64,000 bases of DNA, taken from IMG/VR virus record IMGVR_UViG_3300033571_015173, positions 23,815 to 87,814 of that record; one strand, given 5' to 3'. Below are positions 16,020 to 26,233 of the stretch, one piece after another. Position numbers and translations under genes: made by a program. Below the pieces are notes generated by a model. That model worked only from the letters and a program-made list of their open reading frames with translations. It searched no databases and had not been told where the DNA came from. Source of the DNA: a virus. Within the stretch, counting starts at the first letter, position 1; every line of letters begins with the position of its first letter.

Positions 16020-19000
16020 ATGGCTCTAGTTTTTGACCCCAGTACTGGTGGGTATTCAGTTGCGGGCCACCCTCGCAGTTTGTATCCAAGAAAGAATATT
16101 CTGACCAGCCAGGGCTGGGACCAGATGGCTCTATCGGATTACGAGCCCATTATTGACCCGACAACGGGTGAGCCTATCCGGGACCACTACGGAAACCCCC
16201 AATACAAGCAGGTTAGAGACACAGGAACTGCTATCACGGGTCGGTTTCCAGTGGTGGGAAGCTCCTATGCGACAGATGAATATGCCAATTTAAGCCGCAG
16301 TCCTGGTTTCTTGTCTGACCTGTGGAGAAAATTACAAGGGGCTAGCTCGGGCATTGGATCGGAGCTGAAGGCAGATCTCTATGGTCCCCCAGTCAAATCA
16401 GCCCCTCCAGCATGGCCAATTGATCTTGGCATCGGAGGACAACCAGCAACAATGGCTGATTATTTCGCAGCACTTAAGGCGCAAGATCAACCTATTCCTT
16501 TCGCCGGTGGGGGAATGGTTGACAAGCTAGAAGCGCTGAAGGCACAAGAAGTGTCTGGTGTTACTGCGAAAATGAAAAAGATTGAAGATGTCAAAAACCT
16601 AGAAGCAAGAGTTAAGGCGGCAAAAGCGGCTCTTCAGGACAACCTTAAGCAGGCATATTACCGTAAAGTTCTGGAGCAAAGATTCCCAGGTATCAAACTA
16701 GATGGAGTTCCATTAAATACCGGATGGGATATAGAAAAGGCTCTGGGTTTACCTGCTGAACAGTTAGTAGGTATGACTAAAGAGACTGGTCTAAGATCTG
16801 CCCTTTCTGAGGCTTTAAGACTAAGAAATCTTGCCCCTGCCGAACCCGGTAAACTGTCTGATCAAGTTCTTGATCCTCGCCTTAAAGCTTTAATTGAAGC
16901 TGAAAACATCCCACGAATGGATGCTGCAGGCAACGATCCAAGTAGAGCGGATCTTGCTTTGCTTCTAGAGCATGGAATAGCAGATGAAGAGGATCTACTG
17001 GCATTTCCAAAGGCTCGGGCTGCATGGAAAAGAATGAAGGCGAAACAAGCGGAAGATATTGAATTCAATAAACGGCTTGCAGCTCAAGGTGGTGTAGTAG
17101 AAGATCCAAGACTTTTTGATAATCCACATACGGTATATGGTCCAGGAGGACCTATACCCGTAGCTCCCAGAGAAATTGAACAAATTCCGCAATGGTTACA
17201 TGATGCAGCACACCCAAAACCTACTGCTGATCAAGTAGGCGATGCCAAGGAAGTAGTTAGAGAACAGCAAGAATATAACCGGGATATTAGAAGACTGCTT
17301 GCTGGTTCGGCCAAGATGGAAGGTTGGGATCCTGTATCTGCTCCTTACCATGTAGTTCAACAAAGACTAACGGGTGCTAAGAAAGGAGATAAATTTCCGG
17401 GTGGAGTTGTCTACAATCCTGAGCATTTACAAGGGATTTTAGACAATCGTGCGATTATTGCAGCACATGCTCTCAATGTGCCAGAACGCAGATTTACTCC
17501 TCACATGCCAGTTTTAGACTGGTGGATGAATCCCAGGACTCAAGAGAGTAATTTTCAGAATCCAGATTGGCAGAACGATTATCCCAGGAATATCACACTT
17601 CCTGACGGAAGAATTGTCCAGACTGCTTATACAGGAGAAGAAGTTCTAGCCGATATTAATCGGCAAATTGCTTCCCCGTATGGATTTGAAAAGGCAGGTG
17701 TTCGGGACTTAACCCCTGGACAAATGCAAGCTATCTATGACCAGAAGAATCCACTAGAAACTGCTGAATTAGAGCTTAAGCAACATGCCTATGATTCCCA
17801 AATGGGAATTAAGAATGCTGGTCTTCAAGCTTATGGCATTCGAGATCCTGAACTGGCGTTAAGAGAGGGAGGTTATATTCCTAGCCTCAAGCATTACGCC
17901 AAGAAGGATAAGTCTGGGAGATACATTAACTCCTACCGGACTAATGTTGAGGCTAGGAACGCAGCCAAAAATAACATTCTGTTCAATCAAGCCTTGCTTG
18001 ATACTGAGATTGGAAGGACTATCCAACCTTTCTGGGCAGAACGGAATCAGATGCTGAAGGTCGATGCGAATAGACCGGAATGGTGGGGGAACACTTTATC
18101 TCAGTCTGGAACGAACTACGATTACGCCATCCGCCCAACCCCTATCGATGTCGAGAAGCAGAAAGCTACCAGACAGCTCTTCGATCTTTACAGATATGGA
18201 GGCCAGGGGCAGACAGCTTATCACGATCCTTTGGGTGTCTACAATAAAGCTGGAGGCCGTCCTGCATTTTCTAGTACTGGTCTGCTTAAGCCTGGTTCTA
18301 GCGTTCTTGATGCTAGTACTTATAGTTTAGGTTCTGACAGGCTAGGAGTTGCATACCCTCAGTCTGCATTTTCTAGCGCTGGTCTTGCTAATGCAGTAGA
18401 AACTGTTCCCTCAACATGGGCTCCAGACGGTCGGTATACTCCAACCGATCCTGCATGGATGGGGCTGGAATCTTATCGTCCATCGCGAGCTATTAGAACT
18501 CAAGCTCCTTCGATTCTTGATCAGTTTCAGGGAATGACTCGGATAAAGGATCAATTATCCAGGGCTCCTGGTCCTATTGCTCCTGTTGTATTACAACAAC
18601 TTCTACCTGAAGTACGTCAAGGTCCTGCATCAACTTTAATTCCAGGTAGAGCTCTTGCCGAACTTGGAATTAATCGTGTTACTGCTCGGAATACTGAAGA
18701 TCCTTGGGCTGTAGTTAGAAGAGCTGGGAAGTATAAGCGTACTCCTTTCCCTCTTGGGGCGGAAGATCTTTCTACTCCTGCTACTCGCGCCTATGCAGAG
18801 AATGCCATGTTCCAAAGCACTAAGCCTTTTTATCCATCTGTCATGGATAGGAGTGCTAAGTCTTTGCTACCCCAGCTTCGACCTTTAGAGTCTGGTAGAG
18901 AAGCCTATCTCAGACTTCAAGAAAAGAATGCTGATGATATTGCAAGATATGGTGTTGCTACTTCTCCTATGTTTAATGCACAGGAGTATGTTGACAGCCA

Positions 19001-20777
19001 TTACGGTGGCTTTCGTCCAGAAGAGAAAGCTGCAATCGCAGCATCGATGAATGAGTCGGCACTTGATGCAACTCTCGGTGATAGTGCGAGTAAGGCTCAG
19101 AGAATGGCTCGTAATTTGGGCGATGCTCTTGGCCTTCAAGCTCGGGCTGACATCGGTTGGGACCCAGCATTGAAAACCTGGCAAGGAGTTCAAGGTAAGA
19201 AAGTTTACGATGTCGGATCTACTCAGAGAGCACAACTAAGAATACAAGGTTTGCAGGAGGAGCTTGCAGATCCAGCTAATCAACTGCAACGAAAGTTGTC
19301 TCCCCAGTTTGATAGCATGATGAGACAAAAAGAGGAGACAATTGCAAGCTTAGGAGCTTTTATCGCTCCCAAGACTGCTCTTCCTCCTTATTCTTCGGTT
19401 CCTGCTAATCGTCCAGTTCTGAGACAGATGTTTGCGGAGGCTGCTAATACTGGAATTGGCCCAGAGTTTAGACAGTTTGATGCTAGAGGCTTAGATCAAC
19501 AGCAGAAAGTTAGTGAATTACTTGATGTTGTTATTGCTAACGAAGAGTTAAAGACAGGAAGACCAACTTTGATTCCTCCAGTCGAGCCTATTCGGATGCT
19601 GGAAGAATCAGAAAGGTTGCCTTGGCAAAGTACTAAGAAAATGTGGACTTCGGGATCTAATGCCAGAGGTTTGAGCTCCGTTCAACCGAAGTTAGCATCT
19701 CATCTTATGGAGAAGGGTCTGCCAGGTATCTTAGCCCTAGCTTACGATACTAAGCAACCAGTCTTCCAAACCCCGTCTCTAGCTTTTGGAGATCGTGGGA
19801 TCAAGTTAGCTGGAGAGAGAGATGCTCTTATTTCCCCGGAGGATGTAACAGAACTCTATCGTGAGACTCTACCTGAGGGTCATGCAAAATATGAAGGCAT
19901 GAATTGGAGAAGTGGAGCTCCCGTCCAGTTCGAGCCTGCAGGTCGCTATAGCGCACCAAATGAGCGGGATCTTATTGTTCCTGAGAAAATGATGGTTGCA
20001 GAACGCGATCCTCAAATTCAAAAGGCTAGAGATTATCTAACTGCTCATGGTAGACGCTGGACCTTTGGGGAGGAAAGCCCTAGAGAAGCCGGTGTTATTG
20101 GCAAGATGCAAGCTGGTAATCTGGGTGCTCTAGAGATGGTTGAAGAAGCGAAGAATCTCAATATCCAAGACTCGATGCTTCGTAGCCTGCATGGTGGGAG
20201 TTATGGATTTACTCCATCCCCACTCTTAAAGCAATTTGTTTCAGATAATCAATCTGAAATACAAGCGGCTAATGAAAGAAGACAAGCTCGTAAACAGGAA
20301 GCTATTATTTCTGCTGCACAACCTGAGAAGTTTGGAGTTGTTACTCCTGCTTTCTCCGATGACTATCTTGGCAGCAGGCTCACTGGGAAGAGCACGGCAA
20401 CCAGTCAAATCTTAAATGATGCGCTAGAGGCGCAAAGAACTACCGTGGCAAAAATCGAAAGACCTGATTTCTATATTGATCCCGGAGAGACAAGACAGAT
20501 TGGATTTGTTGATCAAGAAAGGAACTTTGTTGAACCGGGTAGAACCAATCTAGAGATGGCGCAAGTCCAAGAAGTTCGAGAACCAAGAGTAAGATTAACT
20601 TCTCCATCTGATCCTAGCGATTTAAGAGCTAGGGCTGCCGCACTACTTGAGAAGAAAGCAGCGAGATCTCAGTCAACCTATCAACCTGATTTAGGTCGGG
20701 ATGTCCGCATTCAAAGACCAACAACTGATGTAGCTGAAGATCTCCTGTCTACCATTCGCCGCACTTATCGGCGATAA
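16020..20777 (+). CDS. giant protein of unknown function (1585 aa)
   Basis: ATG 16020 with AGGACAAAAGAC upstream. A very long soluble protein without signal or transmembrane segments, rich in Pro, Arg, Leu and Ala. It opens with short Asp/Gly/Pro/Tyr motifs (DPSTGG, DPTTGEPIRDHYGNPQY), has a helical stretch near residues 165-225, and many loop-like segments thereafter, ending in basic RRTYRR. No enzyme motifs recognised. Size, monocistronic organisation and its own terminator suggest an abundant virion-internal or ejected protein, or a tape-measure-like protein, but it lacks the long uninterrupted coiled coils of classical tape measures. Its place far from the tail genes is odd. Confidence 0.6.
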   Translation: MALVFDPSTGGYSVAGHPRSLYPRKNILTSQGWDQMALSDYEPIIDPTTGEPIRDHYGNPQYKQVRDTGTAITGRFPVVGSSYATDEYANLSRSPGFLSDLWRKLQGASSGIGSELKADLYGPPVKSAPPAWPIDLGIGGQPATMADYFAALKAQDQPIPFAGGGMVDKLEALKAQEVSGVTAKMKKIEDVKNLEARVKAAKAALQDNLKQAYYRKVLEQRFPGIKLDGVPLNTGWDIEKALGLPAEQLVGMTKETGLRSALSEALRLRNLAPAEPGKLSDQVLDPRLKALIEAENIPRMDAAGNDPSRADLALLLEHGIADEEDLLAFPKARAAWKRMKAKQAEDIEFNKRLAAQGGVVEDPRLFDNPHTVYGPGGPIPVAPREIEQIPQWLHDAAHPKPTADQVGDAKEVVREQQEYNRDIRRLLAGSAKMEGWDPVSAPYHVVQQRLTGAKKGDKFPGGVVYNPEHLQGILDNRAIIAAHALNVPERRFTPHMPVLDWWMNPRTQESNFQNPDWQNDYPRNITLPDGRIVQTAYTGEEVLADINRQIASPYGFEKAGVRDLTPGQMQAIYDQKNPLETAELELKQHAYDSQMGIKNAGLQAYGIRDPELALREGGYIPSLKHYAKKDKSGRYINSYRTNVEARNAAKNNILFNQALLDTEIGRTIQPFWAERNQMLKVDANRPEWWGNTLSQSGTNYDYAIRPTPIDVEKQKATRQLFDLYRYGGQGQTAYHDPLGVYNKAGGRPAFSSTGLLKPGSSVLDASTYSLGSDRLGVAYPQSAFSSAGLANAVETVPSTWAPDGRYTPTDPAWMGLESYRPSRAIRTQAPSILDQFQGMTRIKDQLSRAPGPIAPVVLQQLLPEVRQGPASTLIPGRALAELGINRVTARNTEDPWAVVRRAGKYKRTPFPLGAEDLSTPATRAYAENAMFQSTKPFYPSVMDRSAKSLLPQLRPLESGREAYLRLQEKNADDIARYGVATSPMFNAQEYVDSHYGGFRPEEKAAIAASMNESALDATLGDSASKAQRMARNLGDALGLQARADIGWDPALKTWQGVQGKKVYDVGSTQRAQLRIQGLQEELADPANQLQRKLSPQFDSMMRQKEETIASLGAFIAPKTALPPYSSVPANRPVLRQMFAEAANTGIGPEFRQFDARGLDQQQKVSELLDVVIANEELKTGRPTLIPPVEPIRMLEESERLPWQSTKKMWTSGSNARGLSSVQPKLASHLMEKGLPGILALAYDTKQPVFQTPSLAFGDRGIKLAGERDALISPEDVTELYRETLPEGHAKYEGMNWRSGAPVQFEPAGRYSAPNERDLIVPEKMMVAERDPQIQKARDYLTAHGRRWTFGEESPREAGVIGKMQAGNLGALEMVEEAKNLNIQDSMLRSLHGGSYGFTPSPLLKQFVSDNQSEIQAANERRQARKQEAIISAAQPEKFGVVTPAFSDDYLGSRLTGKSTATSQILNDALEAQRTTVAKIERPDFYIDPGETRQIGFVDQERNFVEPGRTNLEMAQVQEVREPRVRLTSPSDPSDLRARAAALLEKKAARSQSTYQPDLGRDVRIQRPTTDVAEDLLSTIRRTYRR

Positions 20778-20798: not shown

Positions 20799-20827
20799 GG
20801 GTGTAGTTAATCTACACCCCTTTTTTT
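20799..20827 (+). terminator. Rho-independent terminator after the 1585-aa gene
   Basis: Perfect 8-bp stem GGGTGTAG (20799-20806) / CTACACCC (20812-20819) with loop TTAAT, followed by seven T (20821-20827). Confidence 0.85.
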
Positions 20828-22130: not shown

Positions 22131-22664
22131 ATGAGCAGTTTATTCGAGATTTCCGATGCAATTCTTCATCTGAATGACCAGCTGGATAATCTGGATGACG
22201 AAGATCTAGATGATGAGGCTCTTGCAACTATTCAAGAGTTTTTGGCAGGACTTCTTAAGGAAACAATTAATCAGCGGGACCATAAGCTGGATAATTATGG
22301 AGCTCTTATCAGAGAAATCAAACTCCGAGCTAGTGTTAGAAAGCAAGAGGCTGAAAGGTTGATTAAGCTTTCAAGATTCGATGAGAATAGAGCTAATCGG
22401 CTTGAAGAGTGCTTGTTCAAGTTCCTGGCTGCTCACAATCTGAAGAAGCTCGATACTACCAGATTCCGATTTTCTGTTTGTGTCAATGGTGGAAAGCTTC
22501 CCCTGGTACTCGATGAAGAACTAGAACCAGATGACTTCCCAGAAGAGTACACTTATCCAGTGACGGTAGTAGACAAAGTGGCTATTCGAGAAGCATTAGA
22601 AGCAGGGAAAGAACTTACCTTTGCTAAACTTGGTGAACGAGGATCCCACTTAAGGATCAGATGA
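22131..22664 (+). CDS. siphovirus Gp157-family protein
   Basis: 177 residues, start behind AGGAGCTAAAAGT. The pattern fits Gp157: an acidic helical N-terminus (LNDQLDNLDDEDLDDEA), KETINQRDHKLDNYGALIRE in the middle, a second helix (ENRANRLEECLFKFLAAHNL), a beta segment TTRFRFSVCVNGGKLPLVLD and a C-terminal DKVAIREALEAGKEL...LRIR. The family is common in phage replication clusters, and one member has been linked to phage resistance in streptococci; biochemical role unclear. Its stop overlaps the first FGE cassette (ATGA), so the cassettes are co-translated with it. Confidence 0.8.
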   Translation: MSSLFEISDAILHLNDQLDNLDDEDLDDEALATIQEFLAGLLKETINQRDHKLDNYGALIREIKLRASVRKQEAERLIKLSRFDENRANRLEECLFKFLAAHNLKKLDTTRFRFSVCVNGGKLPLVLDEELEPDDFPEEYTYPVTVVDKVAIREALEAGKELTFAKLGERGSHLRIR

Positions 22665-22819
22665 AACTAGAGGTTCAAAGGTTGCGCGGCGGATCCTGGC
22701 ATTTTAAGTCCTGGTTCTGCCGCTCTGCATATCATGGCTGCTTCATTAAAAGCGTTCCAACTAGTGATGTTGGTTTTCGGATTCTAATTAGGAGGCGAAA
22801 TGGAAAGCTTTATCAGTAA
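22661..22819 (+). CDS. FGE/C-lectin cassette 1 (52 aa)
   Basis: ATG overlaps the Gp157 stop (ATGA). Layout: leader MKLEVQRL, RGGSW, block HFKSWF, CRSAYH, block GCFIKSVPTSDV, GFRIL, then a basic tail. The tail is encoded through the RBS of cassette 2, with a 20-base overlap. Confidence 0.75.
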   Translation: MKLEVQRLRGGSWHFKSWFCRSAYHGCFIKSVPTSDVGFRILIRRRNGKLYQ

Positions 22820-22958
22820 AATTGTGCGTGGTGCTTCCTGGGCGTGCAATCTCACTATTTCCTACTCGGCTTTTCGTGAAGAGGTTGGTCCAGTAGCTAG
22901 AGATGATTCTATTGGTTTTCGGATTGCAATCAAGGAGAAAAATGAAAAGACCTGTTAG
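22800..22958 (+). CDS. FGE/C-lectin cassette 2 (52 aa)
   Basis: ATG 22800 preceded by AGGAGGCGAA. RGASW, block ACNLTI, SYSAFR (Cys and Arg of CRSA replaced), block EEVGPVARDDSI, GFRIA. Overlaps cassette 3 by 17 bases. Confidence 0.75.
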   Translation: MESFISKIVRGASWACNLTISYSAFREEVGPVARDDSIGFRIAIKEKNEKTC

Positions 22959-23097
22959 GATGATGTTGCGTAGTAACCCCTGGAGTATTTGCCTCTGGGG
23001 TCGCTCGGCTTGTCGGCTTGACAACGATCCCAATAATTATGATCCTGATATCGGTTTTCGAGTTGTGATTGGGAGGAGAAATGAAAAGACCAGTTAG
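22942..23097 (+). CDS. FGE/C-lectin cassette 3 (51 aa)
   Basis: ATG 22942 behind AAGGAGAAA. Divergent first motif RSNPW, block SICLWG, GRSACR, block [17 protein letters not shown]. The leader (MKRPVRMML) matches cassettes 4 and 5. Confidence 0.75.
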
Positions 23098-23242
23098 TAG
23101 ATGGCCTTTGTTACGTGGTGGTTCCTGGCATTTCAATCCCGATAACTGCCGCTCGGCGTACCGTAGCGGAAACAATACCCTCTATCGGTTTAATAATGCC
23201 GGTTTTCGGATTGTCAAGGAGGGAAATGAAAAGACTAATTAG
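23081..23242 (+). CDS. FGE/C-lectin cassette 4 (53 aa)
   Basis: ATG 23081 behind GGGAGGAGAA. Canonical: [34 protein letters not shown]. Leader [11 protein letters not shown]. Overlaps cassette 5 by 17 bases. Confidence 0.8.
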
Positions 23243-23378
23243 GAAGCTGTCTTTGTTACGTGGCGGTTCCTGGAGTCTTGAGACTAATTTTTGCCGTCCC
23301 GCGTTTCGTGGTGGAGACTATTCCGATTACCAGGATAATGACATTGGTTTTCGAGTTGTGATTGGAGGCAAAAAATGA
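23226..23378 (+). CDS. FGE/C-lectin cassette 5 (50 aa)
   Basis: ATG 23226 behind [44 protein letters not shown]. Its stop overlaps the next start (ATGA). Confidence 0.8.
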
Positions 23379-23536
23379 AAAAGTTTATCAGTAAAGCAAT
23401 CCGCAGCGGTTCTTGGTATAGCTATGCTGATTCTAGCCGAACGGCTTATCACGATCTGCAGGATGTCTGGAATCGGAATAACTATATTGGTTTTCGGATT
23501 GTAGTTGCAAAGAAAAAGAATGAAAAAGCAATCTGA
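23375..23536 (+). CDS. FGE/C-lectin cassette 6 (53 aa)
   Basis: ATG 23375 behind TTGGAGGCAAAAA. RSGSW, YSYADS, SRTAYH, DLQDVWNRNNYI, GFRIV. The leader MKKFISKAI resembles that of cassette 2 (MESFISKIV). Confidence 0.8.
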   Translation: MKKFISKAIRSGSWYSYADSSRTAYHDLQDVWNRNNYIGFRIVVAKKKNEKAI

Positions 23537-23690
23537 ATTCCATAAGATATTGCGTGGTGGTTCTTACCTTTTTGATCCTGAATACTGCCGGTCTGCATAT
23601 TGGTATGTTGGCCGCCTTGTATATCGTGATCACCACTACGGTTTTCGGATTGTTATTGGAGGAGCAAGCCATGAAAAGCAGAAGCTTTAA
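23520..23690 (+). CDS. FGE/C-lectin cassette 7 (56 aa)
   Basis: ATG 23520. RGGSY, LFDPEY, CRSAYW, YVGRLVYRDHHY, GFRIV, with a longer tail (IGGASHEKQKL) read through the start of cassette 8. Confidence 0.75.
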   Translation: MKKQSEFHKILRGGSYLFDPEYCRSAYWYVGRLVYRDHHYGFRIVIGGASHEKQKL

Positions 23691-23871
23691 GAGTCCTATT
23701 CTTCGTGGCAACTCTTGGCTGAATAACGCAAAGAATTCCCGTTCAGCTTGTCGTACTTGGTATGACGCTACACTTGCACTTAATAACTTTAGTTTTCGAG
23801 TTGTTGTTAGAGGAGTGAGCCGTGAAAACATGGAAGACAGCGAGGGGCAGCGCTTGGAACAGCAGACCTAG
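23671..23871 (+). CDS. FGE/C-lectin cassette 8 (66 aa)
   Basis: ATG 23671 behind TTGGAGGAGCAAGCC. RGNSW, LNNAKN, SRSACR, TWYDATLALNNF, SFRVV, then an unusually long 20-residue tail out of frame with cassette 9. Second motif has SFR for GFR. Confidence 0.75.
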   Translation: MKSRSFKSPILRGNSWLNNAKNSRSACRTWYDATLALNNFSFRVVVRGVSRENMEDSEGQRLEQQT

Positions 23872-23959
23872 GAAGTGCCGTTCGGCTTCCCGAGAAAATG
23901 ATGCCCCTGATCAAGATAATTACTGTTATGGCTTTCGAGTTGTGATCAATAAACCATGA
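23822..23959 (+). CDS. FGE/C-lectin cassette 9 (45 aa, GTG start)
   Basis: GTG 23822 behind AGAGGAGTGAGCC. RGSAW, NSRPRK, CRSASR, ENDAPDQDNYCY, GFRVV, INKP. Easily missed because of the GTG start and short length, but all constant motifs are in register. Confidence 0.75.
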   Translation: MKTWKTARGSAWNSRPRKCRSASRENDAPDQDNYCYGFRVVINKP

Positions 23960-24093
23960 GTCAGAAAATAGCGCGTGGTAATTCCTGGTTTGGAAATCGT
24001 ACTTACTCTAGATCAGCCTCCCGCAATGTTAGCATCCCCAGGTATGATGAAGATATTTTTGGCTTTCGTATTGTGATCAAAGATAAACCATGA
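23956..24093 (+). CDS. FGE/C-lectin cassette 10 (45 aa)
   Basis: ATGA overlap with cassette 9. RGNSW, FGNRTY, SRSASR, NVSIPRYDEDIF, GFRIV, IKDKP. The first ~75 bases are almost identical to cassette 11; divergence is concentrated in the second variable block. Confidence 0.8.
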   Translation: MSQKIARGNSWFGNRTYSRSASRNVSIPRYDEDIFGFRIVIKDKP

Positions 24094-24350
24094 GTCAGAA
24101 AATAGCGCGTGGTAATTCCTGGTTTGGAAATCGTACTTACTCTAGATCGGCCTTCCGCAATGTTAGGACCCACAGATATGATGGGGAGATTTTTTTTGGC
24201 TTTCGGATTGTAATGAAGAAAAACCATAAAGTAAAGACAATGCGTGGTGGATGCTCGGGCAACGACATAGAATATTGTCGCTCTGCATCTCGTACTATGA
24301 GCGGATCACACAATGCCAGTTTGATTATCGGCCTTCGAGTTGTGAAATGA
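24090..24350 (+). CDS. FGE/C-lectin cassettes 11 and 12, fused (86 aa)
   Basis: ATGA overlap with cassette 10. The single frame carries two complete units: RGNSW, FGNRTY, SRSAFR, NVRTHRYDGEIFF (13 residues), GFRIV, linker MKKNHKVKTM, then RGGCS, GNDIEY, CRSASR, TMSGSHNASLII, GLRVV. Internal ATGs in the linker could still initiate cassette 12 separately, although no strong RBS precedes them. Confidence 0.75.
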   Translation: MSQKIARGNSWFGNRTYSRSAFRNVRTHRYDGEIFFGFRIVMKKNHKVKTMRGGCSGNDIEYCRSASRTMSGSHNASLIIGLRVVK

Positions 24351-24493
24351 AAAACGAAAAAGAAAAATCAATCCGCAGCGGATCCTGGGTTGCTAATGAC
24401 GATCTCTGCCGCTCACCCTTTCGTTCAAGAGAATCTAACAAGTACTGGGACAACTACATTGGATTCAGGATTCTTATCAAGAAAAAGCCATGA
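24347..24493 (+). CDS. FGE/C-lectin cassette 13 (48 aa)
   Basis: ATGA overlap. Lys-rich leader MKNEKEKSI, RSGSW, VANDDL, CRSPFR, SRESNKYWDNYI, GFRIL, IKKKP. Confidence 0.8.
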   Translation: MKNEKEKSIRSGSWVANDDLCRSPFRSRESNKYWDNYIGFRILIKKKP

Positions 24494-24648
24494 GGTACAA
24501 AAAGAAGATACTAAGAGGTGGAGGTGGGACTATTATTCCCAAGTACTGTCGGTCAGCCTATCGAGTCAACCATTATCTTCCTTACAGCTTTGAGCGATTC
24601 TTTGGATTTCGGATTGTTGTTAGAGGGACAGGAAGTGAAGGAACTTAA
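24490..24648 (+). CDS. FGE/C-lectin cassette 14 (52 aa)
   Basis: ATGA overlap. RGGGG (the Trp motif lost), TIIPKY, CRSAYR, VNHYLPYSFERFF (13 residues), GFRIV, VRGTGSEGT tail. Confidence 0.75.
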   Translation: MRYKKKILRGGGGTIIPKYCRSAYRVNHYLPYSFERFFGFRIVVRGTGSEGT

Positions 24649-24790
24649 GTCTATACGTGGTGGTTCTTGGGGTGATTATTCAGCGTTCTGTCGGTCGGCT
24701 GTTCGGAATGACTATCACTCCAACAATGACCATGATAACCGTGGCTTTCGGATTGTAGTTAGAGAGTACAAGAATGGAAGAGCAAATTAA
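24635..24790 (+). CDS. FGE/C-lectin cassette 15 (51 aa, GTG start)
   Basis: Best start is GTG 24635 behind GGGACAGGAA. RGGSW, GDYSAF, CRSAVR, NDYHSNNDHDNR, GFRIV, VREYKNGRAN tail. Overlaps cassette 14 by 14 and cassette 16 by 17 bases. Confidence 0.75.
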   Translation: MKELKSIRGGSWGDYSAFCRSAVRNDYHSNNDHDNRGFRIVVREYKNGRAN

Positions 24791-25511
24791 GTACAAGTCT
24801 CAGCGTGGTGGGTCGTACTATAACTTTCCCTGGCCCTATCGTTCGAGTTACCGCATTAGGAGTAACTCCAAAGATGCTGATTCTCTTCTCGGTTTTCGGA
24901 TTGTAATCATTGTTCATTTATTCGTGAGAACAACTATGCCTGAGTTTCAAATTGAGATGGTGAATATTCCTGCTGGAGAATACGTGATGGGTTCTCCAGA
25001 CAATGAACCTGGTCGCTTCTCTGATGAAGAGCAACACCTGGTTAAGCTTGAGGGTTTCAGGATGAGTAAGAATCTAATTACTCAGAAAGAGTGGAGGTTT
25101 GTTGCCAGCTTGCCACAAATAGATATTCCACTGAAACCTAGCCCCTCCTATTTTACGGGGGACGATCTGCCGGTGGAATCTGTTAATTGGTATGAAGCAA
25201 TCGAGTTCTGCAAGCGTCTTTCAATTTACCTGAATGAGGAGGTAACTTTACCCTCTGAAGCTCAGTGGGAGTATGCTTGCAGAGCAGGAACCACTACTGC
25301 CTACTACACTGGAGAGACATTGGATCTGACGGAGGCGAACTTCTGGGCTGAAGGAAGTCCGAAGAAGACCACCCCGGTAGGAACTTATCCTCCGAATGCC
25401 TGGGGACTGCATGACATGCACGGCAATCTGTGGGAATGGTGCCTAGATGATTGGCATGATACCTATGAAGGTGCTCCCACTGATGGCAGTGCCTGGATTG
25501 ATCCAGAGTAG
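24774..25511 (+). CDS. cassette 16 fused to N-terminal FGE-sulfatase/C-lectin domain
   Basis: 245 residues. Residues 1-45 are cassette 16 (RGGSY, YNFPWP, YRSSYR, IRSNSKDADSLL, GFRIV). After a short hydrophobic linker an internal ATG (24936, weak RBS GTGAG) begins a canonical FGE-sulfatase N-terminal region: IPAGEYVMGSPDNEPGRFSD, LPVESVNWYEAIEFCKRLS, LPSEAQWEYACRAG, VGTYPPNAWGLHDMHGNLWE and DGSAWIDPE, then the stop. A normal domain would continue about 10 residues later with RGGSW...GFRIV. The gene is therefore both truncated and circularly permuted: the only C-terminal segment it encodes precedes the N-terminal part. The catalytic Cys pair of true FGE enzymes lies in the segment supplied by cassettes and is absent there, so this is a binding domain rather than a sulfatase-activating enzyme. 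Confidence 0.85.
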   Translation: MEEQIKYKSQRGGSYYNFPWPYRSSYRIRSNSKDADSLLGFRIVIIVHLFVRTTMPEFQIEMVNIPAGEYVMGSPDNEPGRFSDEEQHLVKLEGFRMSKNLITQKEWRFVASLPQIDIPLKPSPSYFTGDDLPVESVNWYEAIEFCKRLSIYLNEEVTLPSEAQWEYACRAGTTTAYYTGETLDLTEANFWAEGSPKKTTPVGTYPPNAWGLHDMHGNLWEWCLDDWHDTYEGAPTDGSAWIDPE

Positions 25512-25529
25512 TACATCGAATATCACATA

Positions 25530-25624
25530 GTCGGTTGGGCAGGGGGTTAAGACTCCACTAGTGGTCCCTTCCCTATTGGCAGCTAGTTTACTAGTTCTGG
25601 AATAAGTCCAATATGCTATCCGAC
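25530..25624 (+). ncRNA. structured RNA candidate downstream of the split FGE gene
   Basis: GTCGG (25530-25534) can pair with CCGAC (25620-25624), enclosing two further stems: AGGGGG (25541-25546) with TTCCCT (25569-25574), inside which CCACTAGTGG is self-complementary; and ATTGG (25575-25579) with CCAAT (25608-25612), enclosing CAGCTAGT-TT-ACTAG-TT-CTG. The region lacks an open frame and separates the N-terminal domain gene from a 14-bp hairpin. It may be a regulatory RNA or remnant of a ribozyme or intron; no class recognised. Confidence 0.45.
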
Positions 25625-25625
25625 G

Positions 25626-25667
25626 AATAACACAGTAGCCTACATGAATAGAAGCTACTGTGTTATT
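25626..25667 (+). terminator. perfect 14-bp hairpin (possible terminator)
   Basis: AATAACACAGTAGC (25626-25639) is the exact reverse complement of GCTACTGTGTTATT (25654-25667), with a 14-base loop. The downstream T content is modest (TTATTTCT), so it may be a terminator or a recombination/processing hairpin at the end of the cassette operon. Confidence 0.5.
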
Positions 25668-25679
25668 TCTAGTGTTAAA

Positions 25680-25752
25680 AAAGAACCTCTCAAAGAAAGA
25701 CCTCTCAAAGAAGACCCTCCTAAAGAAAGACCTCTCAAAGAAAGACCTCTCA
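25680..25752 (+). repeat. 15-bp tandem repeat CCTCTCAAAGAAAGA
   Basis: Five imperfect copies of a 15-base unit. In one frame they would read PLKER repeats, but that frame lacks support further on. They lie immediately upstream of the next gene start and may be a noncoding repeat or slippage-prone leader. Confidence 0.7.
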
Positions 25753-25756
25753 ACCT

Positions 25757-26196: not shown

Positions 26197-26233
26197 GTGA
26201 GGGGGTACATTGCTATCCCCCACTTTATTTTCG
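26197..26233 (+). terminator. Rho-independent terminator
   Basis: GTG-A-GGGGG (26197-26205) pairs with CCCCCAC region (26217-26223) with one bulged A, followed by TTTATTTTCG. Confidence 0.7.

Follow-up and report, generated by a model that had tools for sequence, protein, structure and literature searches.

Sixteen variable-region-type cassettes upstream of one circularly permuted C-lectin scaffold in a very probable freshwater cyanophage

The closest described systems to the locus analysed here are the C-lectin variable proteins of diversity-generating retroelements (DGRs), such as Mtd of BPP-1, TvpA of Treponema denticola and the cyanobacterial CLec proteins, in which a single intact gene carries the variable region (VR) at its 3′ end and in most cases lies close to a reverse transcriptase and a template (PMC7517822, PMC8144416). 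The locus lies in a stretch of 64,000 nt of viral DNA (the window; positions 23815-87814 of IMG/VR record IMGVR_UViG_3300033571_015173, which is 87.8 kb long, linear and possibly incomplete), where 16 cassettes of ~35 residues and one N-terminal half of an FGE-sulfatase/C-lectin domain (N-half) are found between the end of a Gp157-like gene at 22664 and position 25511. It shares with the DGR variable proteins the fold family, the VR motif, the AAY-to-NNY codon imprint and the cyanobacterial context, but its VR is detached, located 5′ of the scaffold instead of at the usual 3′ end of the target gene, and present in 16 copies, in a record with neither reverse transcriptase nor template. Multi-target DGRs with up to eight targets (PMC10743442) and proteins with three tandem CLec domains (PMC10907252) also have several VRs that are served together; these repeat whole genes or domains, whereas the present locus repeats only the variable third against one scaffold. 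VRs in 5′ position have, like multi-target DGRs and tandem lectin domains, already been described (PMC10743442, PMC10907252, PMC7517822), and production of a DGR reverse transcriptase via frameshifts has been proposed (PMC8008677). In cultured Microcystis phages (Ma-LMM01, MaMV-DC and others) an N-half with ~51% identity and the same type of VR belongs to an ordinary intact single gene. One constant part with many alternative variable ends is also the plan of the pilS/pilE silent cassettes and of shufflons; the present locus follows this plan, but without inverted repeats and with cassettes that are open, overlapping open reading frames (ORFs). The literature searched (open PMC papers only) yielded no report of VR-only arrays, of permuted VR lectins or of a choice of VR by frameshifting. 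While DGR variable proteins are known, the VR-only array, the permutation and the frameshift choice of VR would be new elements, and a stronger claim would be possible if assembly in trans is true.

A profile derived from the cassettes gave 16 matches (55-71 bits) at 22676-24908, directly upstream of the one N-half at 24948-25502, and thus confirmed the sixteen C-terminal segments that had been recognized in a first reading of the window (the original prediction). Across the whole record, 16 cassettes and one N-half were counted in total, with all cassette matches inside the array; a full-length lectin copy, a second N-half or a further cassette was not found elsewhere in the 87.8 kb. The array consists of 15 ORFs, 13 with a single cassette, one with two cassettes (11 and 12) and one with cassette 16 and the N-half. 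Each ORF starts within the preceding one (overlap 4-50 nt), the first by an ATGA overlap with the Gp157-like gene, and this chain of overlapping ORFs is far beyond chance. Most cassettes had been predicted to possess their own start, ribosome binding site and stop in tight coupling. This holds for the overlaps, which include all ORFs, and for the Shine-Dalgarno (SD) sequence at cassettes 1-6, 8 and 9, where a match of 5-6 nt is clear; it does not hold for the remaining starts, where the SD is weak or absent and several show an ATGA stop/start overlap, nor for cassettes 11 and 12, which share one ORF. The features of the array are the following.

22661..22819, + strand: cassette 1 ORF; core 22676-22789, 63 bits, SD TAAGGA
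22800..22958, + strand: cassette 2 ORF; core 22815-22931, 61 bits, SD AGGAGG
22942..23097, + strand: cassette 3 ORF; core 22960-23070, 57 bits, SD AAGGAG
23081..23242, + strand: cassette 4 ORF; core 23102-23218, 71 bits, SD GGAGG; nearest to the canonical sequence
23226..23378, + strand: cassette 5 ORF; core 23253-23363, 66 bits, SD AGGAGG
23375..23536, + strand: cassette 6 ORF; core 23390-23506, 61 bits, SD GGAGG
23520..23690, + strand: cassette 7 ORF; core 23541-23657, 70 bits, weak SD
23671..23871, + strand: cassette 8 ORF; core 23692-23808, 61 bits, SD AGGAG
23822..23959, + strand: cassette 9 ORF; core 23831-23947, 63 bits, GTG start, SD AGGAG
23956..24093, + strand: cassette 10 ORF; core 23962-24078, 70 bits, ATGA-coupled
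24090..24350, + strand: cassettes 11 and 12 in a single ORF; cores 24096-24215 and 24231-24347, 61 and 58 bits, one open frame
24347..24493, + strand: cassette 13 ORF; core 24365-24478, 64 bits, ATGA-coupled
24490..24648, + strand: cassette 14 ORF; core 24505-24621, 58 bits, ATGA-coupled
24635..24790, + strand: cassette 15 ORF; core 24647-24760, 63 bits, GTG start, SD GAGG
24774..25511, + strand: permuted lectin ORF with cassette 16 (core 24792-24908), linker and N-half; 245 aa in one open frame, cassette 55 bits, N-half 293 bits
24948..25502, + strand: FGE-sulfatase/C-lectin N-half (PF03781), ending where the cassette normally begins; PDB sequence matches PvdO, FGE and TvpA (2y3c), possible own start ATG 24936

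With terminator-like hairpins at 20799 and 26201 as bounds, the array looks like one translationally coupled operon. The N-half ORF matches the PF03781 profile at positions 4-208 of 255 (E 7e-42), so that what it lacks at its end is exactly the C-terminal part, in agreement with the original prediction. It is not a separate orphan gene, as had been assumed: cassette 16 stands in frame with it, although the 191 aa given for the N-half are obtained from an internal ATG at 24936. Cassette 16 and the N-half together are a circular permutation of the ordinary domain, and the N-half has a cassette in cis. Foldseek supported an FGE/PvdO-type structure for the N-half only. The formylglycine-generating enzyme (FGE) carries two catalytic Cys residues five residues apart in its C-terminal segment (human Cys336/Cys341). 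This pair is absent from the cassettes: of the 16, 9 have Cys at column 17, but none has it at column 22, where 13 have Arg.

The cassette (RGGSW...CRSA.R...GFRIV) is assigned to the VRs of DGR-type C-lectins on the basis of its sequence; the locus combines the C-type-lectin/FGE fold with the RGGSW-CRSA-GFR variable region expected of a DGR variable protein. At columns that are Asn in known templates, 184 of 207 codons (89%) were NNY, compared to a background of 52% in phage genes, and among residues with a free third base at these columns NNY was found in 66 of 77 cases (z 4.8 against an expectation of 47.6). The variable columns without Asn in templates did not exceed the background (33/64). 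The framework columns showed a ratio of nonsynonymous to synonymous p-distance (pN/pS) of 0.31 at a synonymous p-distance (pS) of 0.61, which corresponds to purifying selection, and the variable columns one of 0.73-0.93. The NNY imprint, together with framework constraint at high pS, indicates that the cassettes derive from a hypermutated VR, are mutually old and have kept their framework; the decay into duplicates that the original prediction had named as evidence against itself is not seen at these values. Beside the NNY imprint, the window cassettes mismatch the best known template at 22-34 of ~75 non-A bases.

In a comparison set of 217 distinct N-halves, for which the collection searches were started from the N-half, 180 were ordinary, with one cassette downstream and in frame. 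The permuted layout, by contrast with these, has the cassettes upstream and none following in the gene, and the last upstream cassette is always in frame with the C-truncated N-half. Beyond the window it was found at six loci with 2-9 cassettes, so that the combination of an N-half with a cassette array recurs in three other phage groups.

L003/L004: permuted, 2 cassettes
L033/L035: permuted, sister pair, 4 and 3 cassettes; L035 is without one cassette present in L033
L254/L255: permuted, sister pair, 3 cassettes upstream and ~6 downstream; a separate ORF for the first cassettes, like in the window

As at the window array, a Gp157-like gene is located close by in L254. A further array, of ~6 cassettes, lies at L254:4925-5805, with no N-half directly downstream, in two ORFs of three same-frame cassettes each. 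In the pair L254/L255 the N-half is 97% identical, the cis cassette 98% and the upstream cassettes ~55-60%. The pair L033/L035 has N-halves with 98.9% identity, whose 6 changes are split 2/2/2 over the codon positions, one identical cassette and two cassettes that differ at 13 and 16 sites. Those 29 differences fall 15 times on codon position 1, 14 times on position 2 and never on position 3, for which the chance under an even spread is (2/3)^29, or ~8e-6. Because third positions are spared in the cassettes and not in the N-half, recent DGR-type mutagenesis of the permuted cassettes is indicated in L033/L035.

Templates whose variable places carry Asn runs are located in cyanobacterial genomes, adjoining reverse transcriptases in the two genomes checked. 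Host VRs showed essentially no non-A mismatches to their own templates (best cases 0 of 74-79), which validates the template-mismatch test. Reverse transcriptase was present in 1 of 49 phage records, and this record (L068/L081) resembles a classic DGR; none was found in the complete genomes Ma-LMM01 and MaMV-CH01. The Ma-LMM01 VR mismatched a Microcystis template at 5 of 74 non-A bases and 20 of 31 A bases; of the four copies in L023, three had 3-5 mismatches in 77 to a template of Microcystis elabens. Such matches between phage VRs and host templates suggest a host DGR acting in trans or a recent capture of host VRs. The VRs of L270, L023 and L221 match the host templates L261 and L262 at nearly all non-A bases, and no reverse transcriptase was found in these phage records.

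A further arrangement was observed for 16 N-halves (nine clusters at 85% identity), in every one of which the cassette that comes first downstream occupies the -1 frame. Fifteen of these 16 loci carry more than one cassette, always with a later one in the 0 frame. At the junction the sequence is CTG GGA AAG, which is G GGA AAG in -1 phase; variants are A AAA AAG in L029 and CTG GGG GAG in L020, L022, L025, L027 and L065. L014, with CTG AGA AAG, has a single in-frame cassette. A canonical in-phase heptamer was present at 10 of the 16 alternate-frame loci vs 9 of 181 in-frame loci, and a hairpin formed from framework codons just 3′ of the junction reached z -3.7 in L017/L028 and was weaker in others. 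Five serial slip sites are found in L007, each ahead of a stop-terminated -1 cassette and followed at the end by a 0-frame cassette; L007 and L005 each contain one identical cassette pair. Loci with the -1-then-0 order behind lambda-type slip sites are L007:6543-7522, L005, L011, L017, L018, L020-L022, L024, L025, L027-L029, L065 and L093, and an additional scan for the slip-site pattern returned only contigs that were already known. Sequencing error as the source of the alternate frames was rejected, as the -1-then-0 order occurs in all 15 multi-cassette N-halves, in nine clusters and five times within L007.

In the alternate-frame loci, programmed -1 frameshifting thus apparently chooses the VR piece, a route that was absent from the original prediction. 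NNC variable codons are read as NCN in the 0 frame, which encodes only Ser, Pro, Thr or Ala and contains no stop, so that a skipped cassette would be a linker that hypermutation cannot break. The -1 frameshift of the lambda tail chaperone G/GT (cited in PMC8008677) adds one extension. Its G GGA AAG heptamer also occurs in the downstream-cassette relatives, not in the window, but the five successive sites of L007 would choose among VR pieces. Two of the routes of choice that had been proposed fared less well. For recombination into a full-length gene elsewhere, such a gene is missing from the record; for RNA joining, a scan with Rfam for introns and structured RNA, which covered the array and its flanks, gave no match to a known RNA family. 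Inverted repeats of at least 20 nt, which would point to inversion, were not present.

The virus is very probably a freshwater cyanophage, as its head and virion proteins are closest to those of Synechococcus phage S-EIV1 (36-44% identity) and its N-half is closest to proteins of cyanophages and cyanobacteria. The array neighbourhood belongs to an early/replication region with Gp157, exonuclease and primase genes, away from the tail genes, and due to this placement the ligand of the lectin may be intracellular. Defence-system profiles gave no match.

22131..22664, + strand: Gp157-like gene (PF05565, E 1e-29; phrog_253), whose TGA overlaps the ATG of cassette 1 (ATGA)
26201..26220, + strand: terminator-like hairpin 3′ of the gene after the N-half; the preceding strong hairpin is at 20799-20819

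Three other elements were noted in the surroundings, namely a long hairpin 3′ of the N-half at 25612-25670 (AACACAGTAGC...GCTACTGTGTT; without Rfam match, perhaps a terminator or a regulatory element), a 15-nt tandem repeat AAAGACCTCTCAAAG with ~5 copies at 25680-25753, and an ORF of 1585 aa at 16020-20777 without Pfam match.

A split, permuted DGR-type VR lectin, with one scaffold and many alternative binding pieces that are here mostly offered in trans, is the reading we favour, although we give it only an even chance. According to it, a lectin gene would have been cut at the scaffold/VR junction and circularly permuted, and the VR multiplied to 16 tandem coupled copies. Translation would yield one permuted lectin (cassette 16 with the N-half) and fourteen free VR products of ~45-86 residues; either cassette 16 or the free VR peptides would complete the same N-half, perhaps one made from the internal ATG at 24936, and the outcome would be one scaffold with many alternative binding surfaces. 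By inference, the free cassettes would be produced as peptides, would attach to the N-half and would differ in their ligands, and the phage cassettes would be, or would once have been, a target of a host DGR in trans; the assembly of cassette and N-half may be noncovalent. The binding module with a constant part and many variable C-terminal pieces that had been predicted is therefore retained in so far as the pieces are of DGR-type VR and the plan recurs, and was amended in that the N-half is not orphaned. The most extensive version, in which any of the 16 DGR-derived VR peptides assembles noncovalently on the scaffold, sister phages choose by serial -1 frameshifting with a Ser/Pro/Thr/Ala linker, and the host DGR diversifies in trans, is held to be rather doubtful.

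Several results weigh against this reading. In the AlphaFold2 model of the permuted ORF the N-half was folded but the cassette residues 1-41 had a pLDDT <50, with a thin alignment over the cassette. Framework residues are lost in some cassettes: 12 and 14 lack the Trp and 2 lacks the Arg. Cassettes 10 and 11, the closest pair (92% identity along 112 nt), show many differences at non-A and at synonymous sites, and this phage therefore gives no sign of recent DGR activity. In the record, neither a reverse transcriptase (RVT_1 match) nor an Asn-rich template pattern with ≤2 mismatches was found, and a search of IMG/VR for sister phages via the DUF5895-like neighbour gene returned no close relative. 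The groups compared have a common theme, one scaffold with several VR pieces. In one group the pieces are joined covalently by apparent frameshifting, in another they stand on one permuted chain, and the window for the most part, and L254/L255 to some extent, encode them as free coupled peptides. For this reason free cassettes as alternative faces are favoured over an archive, stand-alone peptides and decay.

Among the alternatives, a donor archive in the manner of pilS and pilE, in which cassettes 1-15 replace cassette 16 by recombination and translation of the donors is incidental, is the strongest and is nevertheless considered unlikely. Tandem copies do duplicate and vanish, as in the pair 10/11, the identical pairs of L007 and L005, and the cassette that L035 lacks in comparison to L033. 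However, such archives are normally without starts and ribosome binding sites, and the window array has 15 ORFs that have stayed open and overlap one another; the 98% identical cis cassette of L254/L255 is degenerate while others change, the opposite of what is expected; and the record holds no full-length recipient. Somewhat less probable still are cassettes that act alone, e.g. as ~50-residue decoys against host C-lectins diversified by DGRs, with the N-half product as a separate protein. Many C-lectin genes of this kind with DGRs exist in the cyanobacterial hosts, host DGR targets have been proposed as sensors of conflict systems (PMC10907252), and the locus is placed in the early/replication region and not among tail genes; but the C-terminal third of a C-lectin is not expected to fold by itself, and every array found is linked to an N-half, in searches that began from the N-half. 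Slightly lower again is the chance of a non-functional duplication, in which cassette 16 and the N-half work and the remainder is decaying. The framework losses in cassettes 2, 3, 12 and 14 would fit it, but not the framework pN/pS of 0.31 at a synonymous p-distance of ~0.6, nor the fact that all 16 cassettes are open and that overlaps and SDs are maintained, nor the recurrence in separate phage groups. That programmed frameshifting joins the cassettes in this phage too, as it apparently does in relatives with a strong frame pattern and slip sites, is highly improbable, as a slip site is missing at the N-half junction of the window, no cassette follows downstream of this junction, and the cassettes are upstream, in irregular frames and with stops between them.

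Known DGR systems vary the binding site within an intact gene. The window locus and its relatives are natural split and permuted lectin scaffolds open to laboratory tests, and they raise the question whether phages without reverse transcriptase are diversified by a host DGR. If the favoured reading is true, a VR library on one scaffold, or the choice of a piece during translation, would be a new viral way to present many specificities at once.

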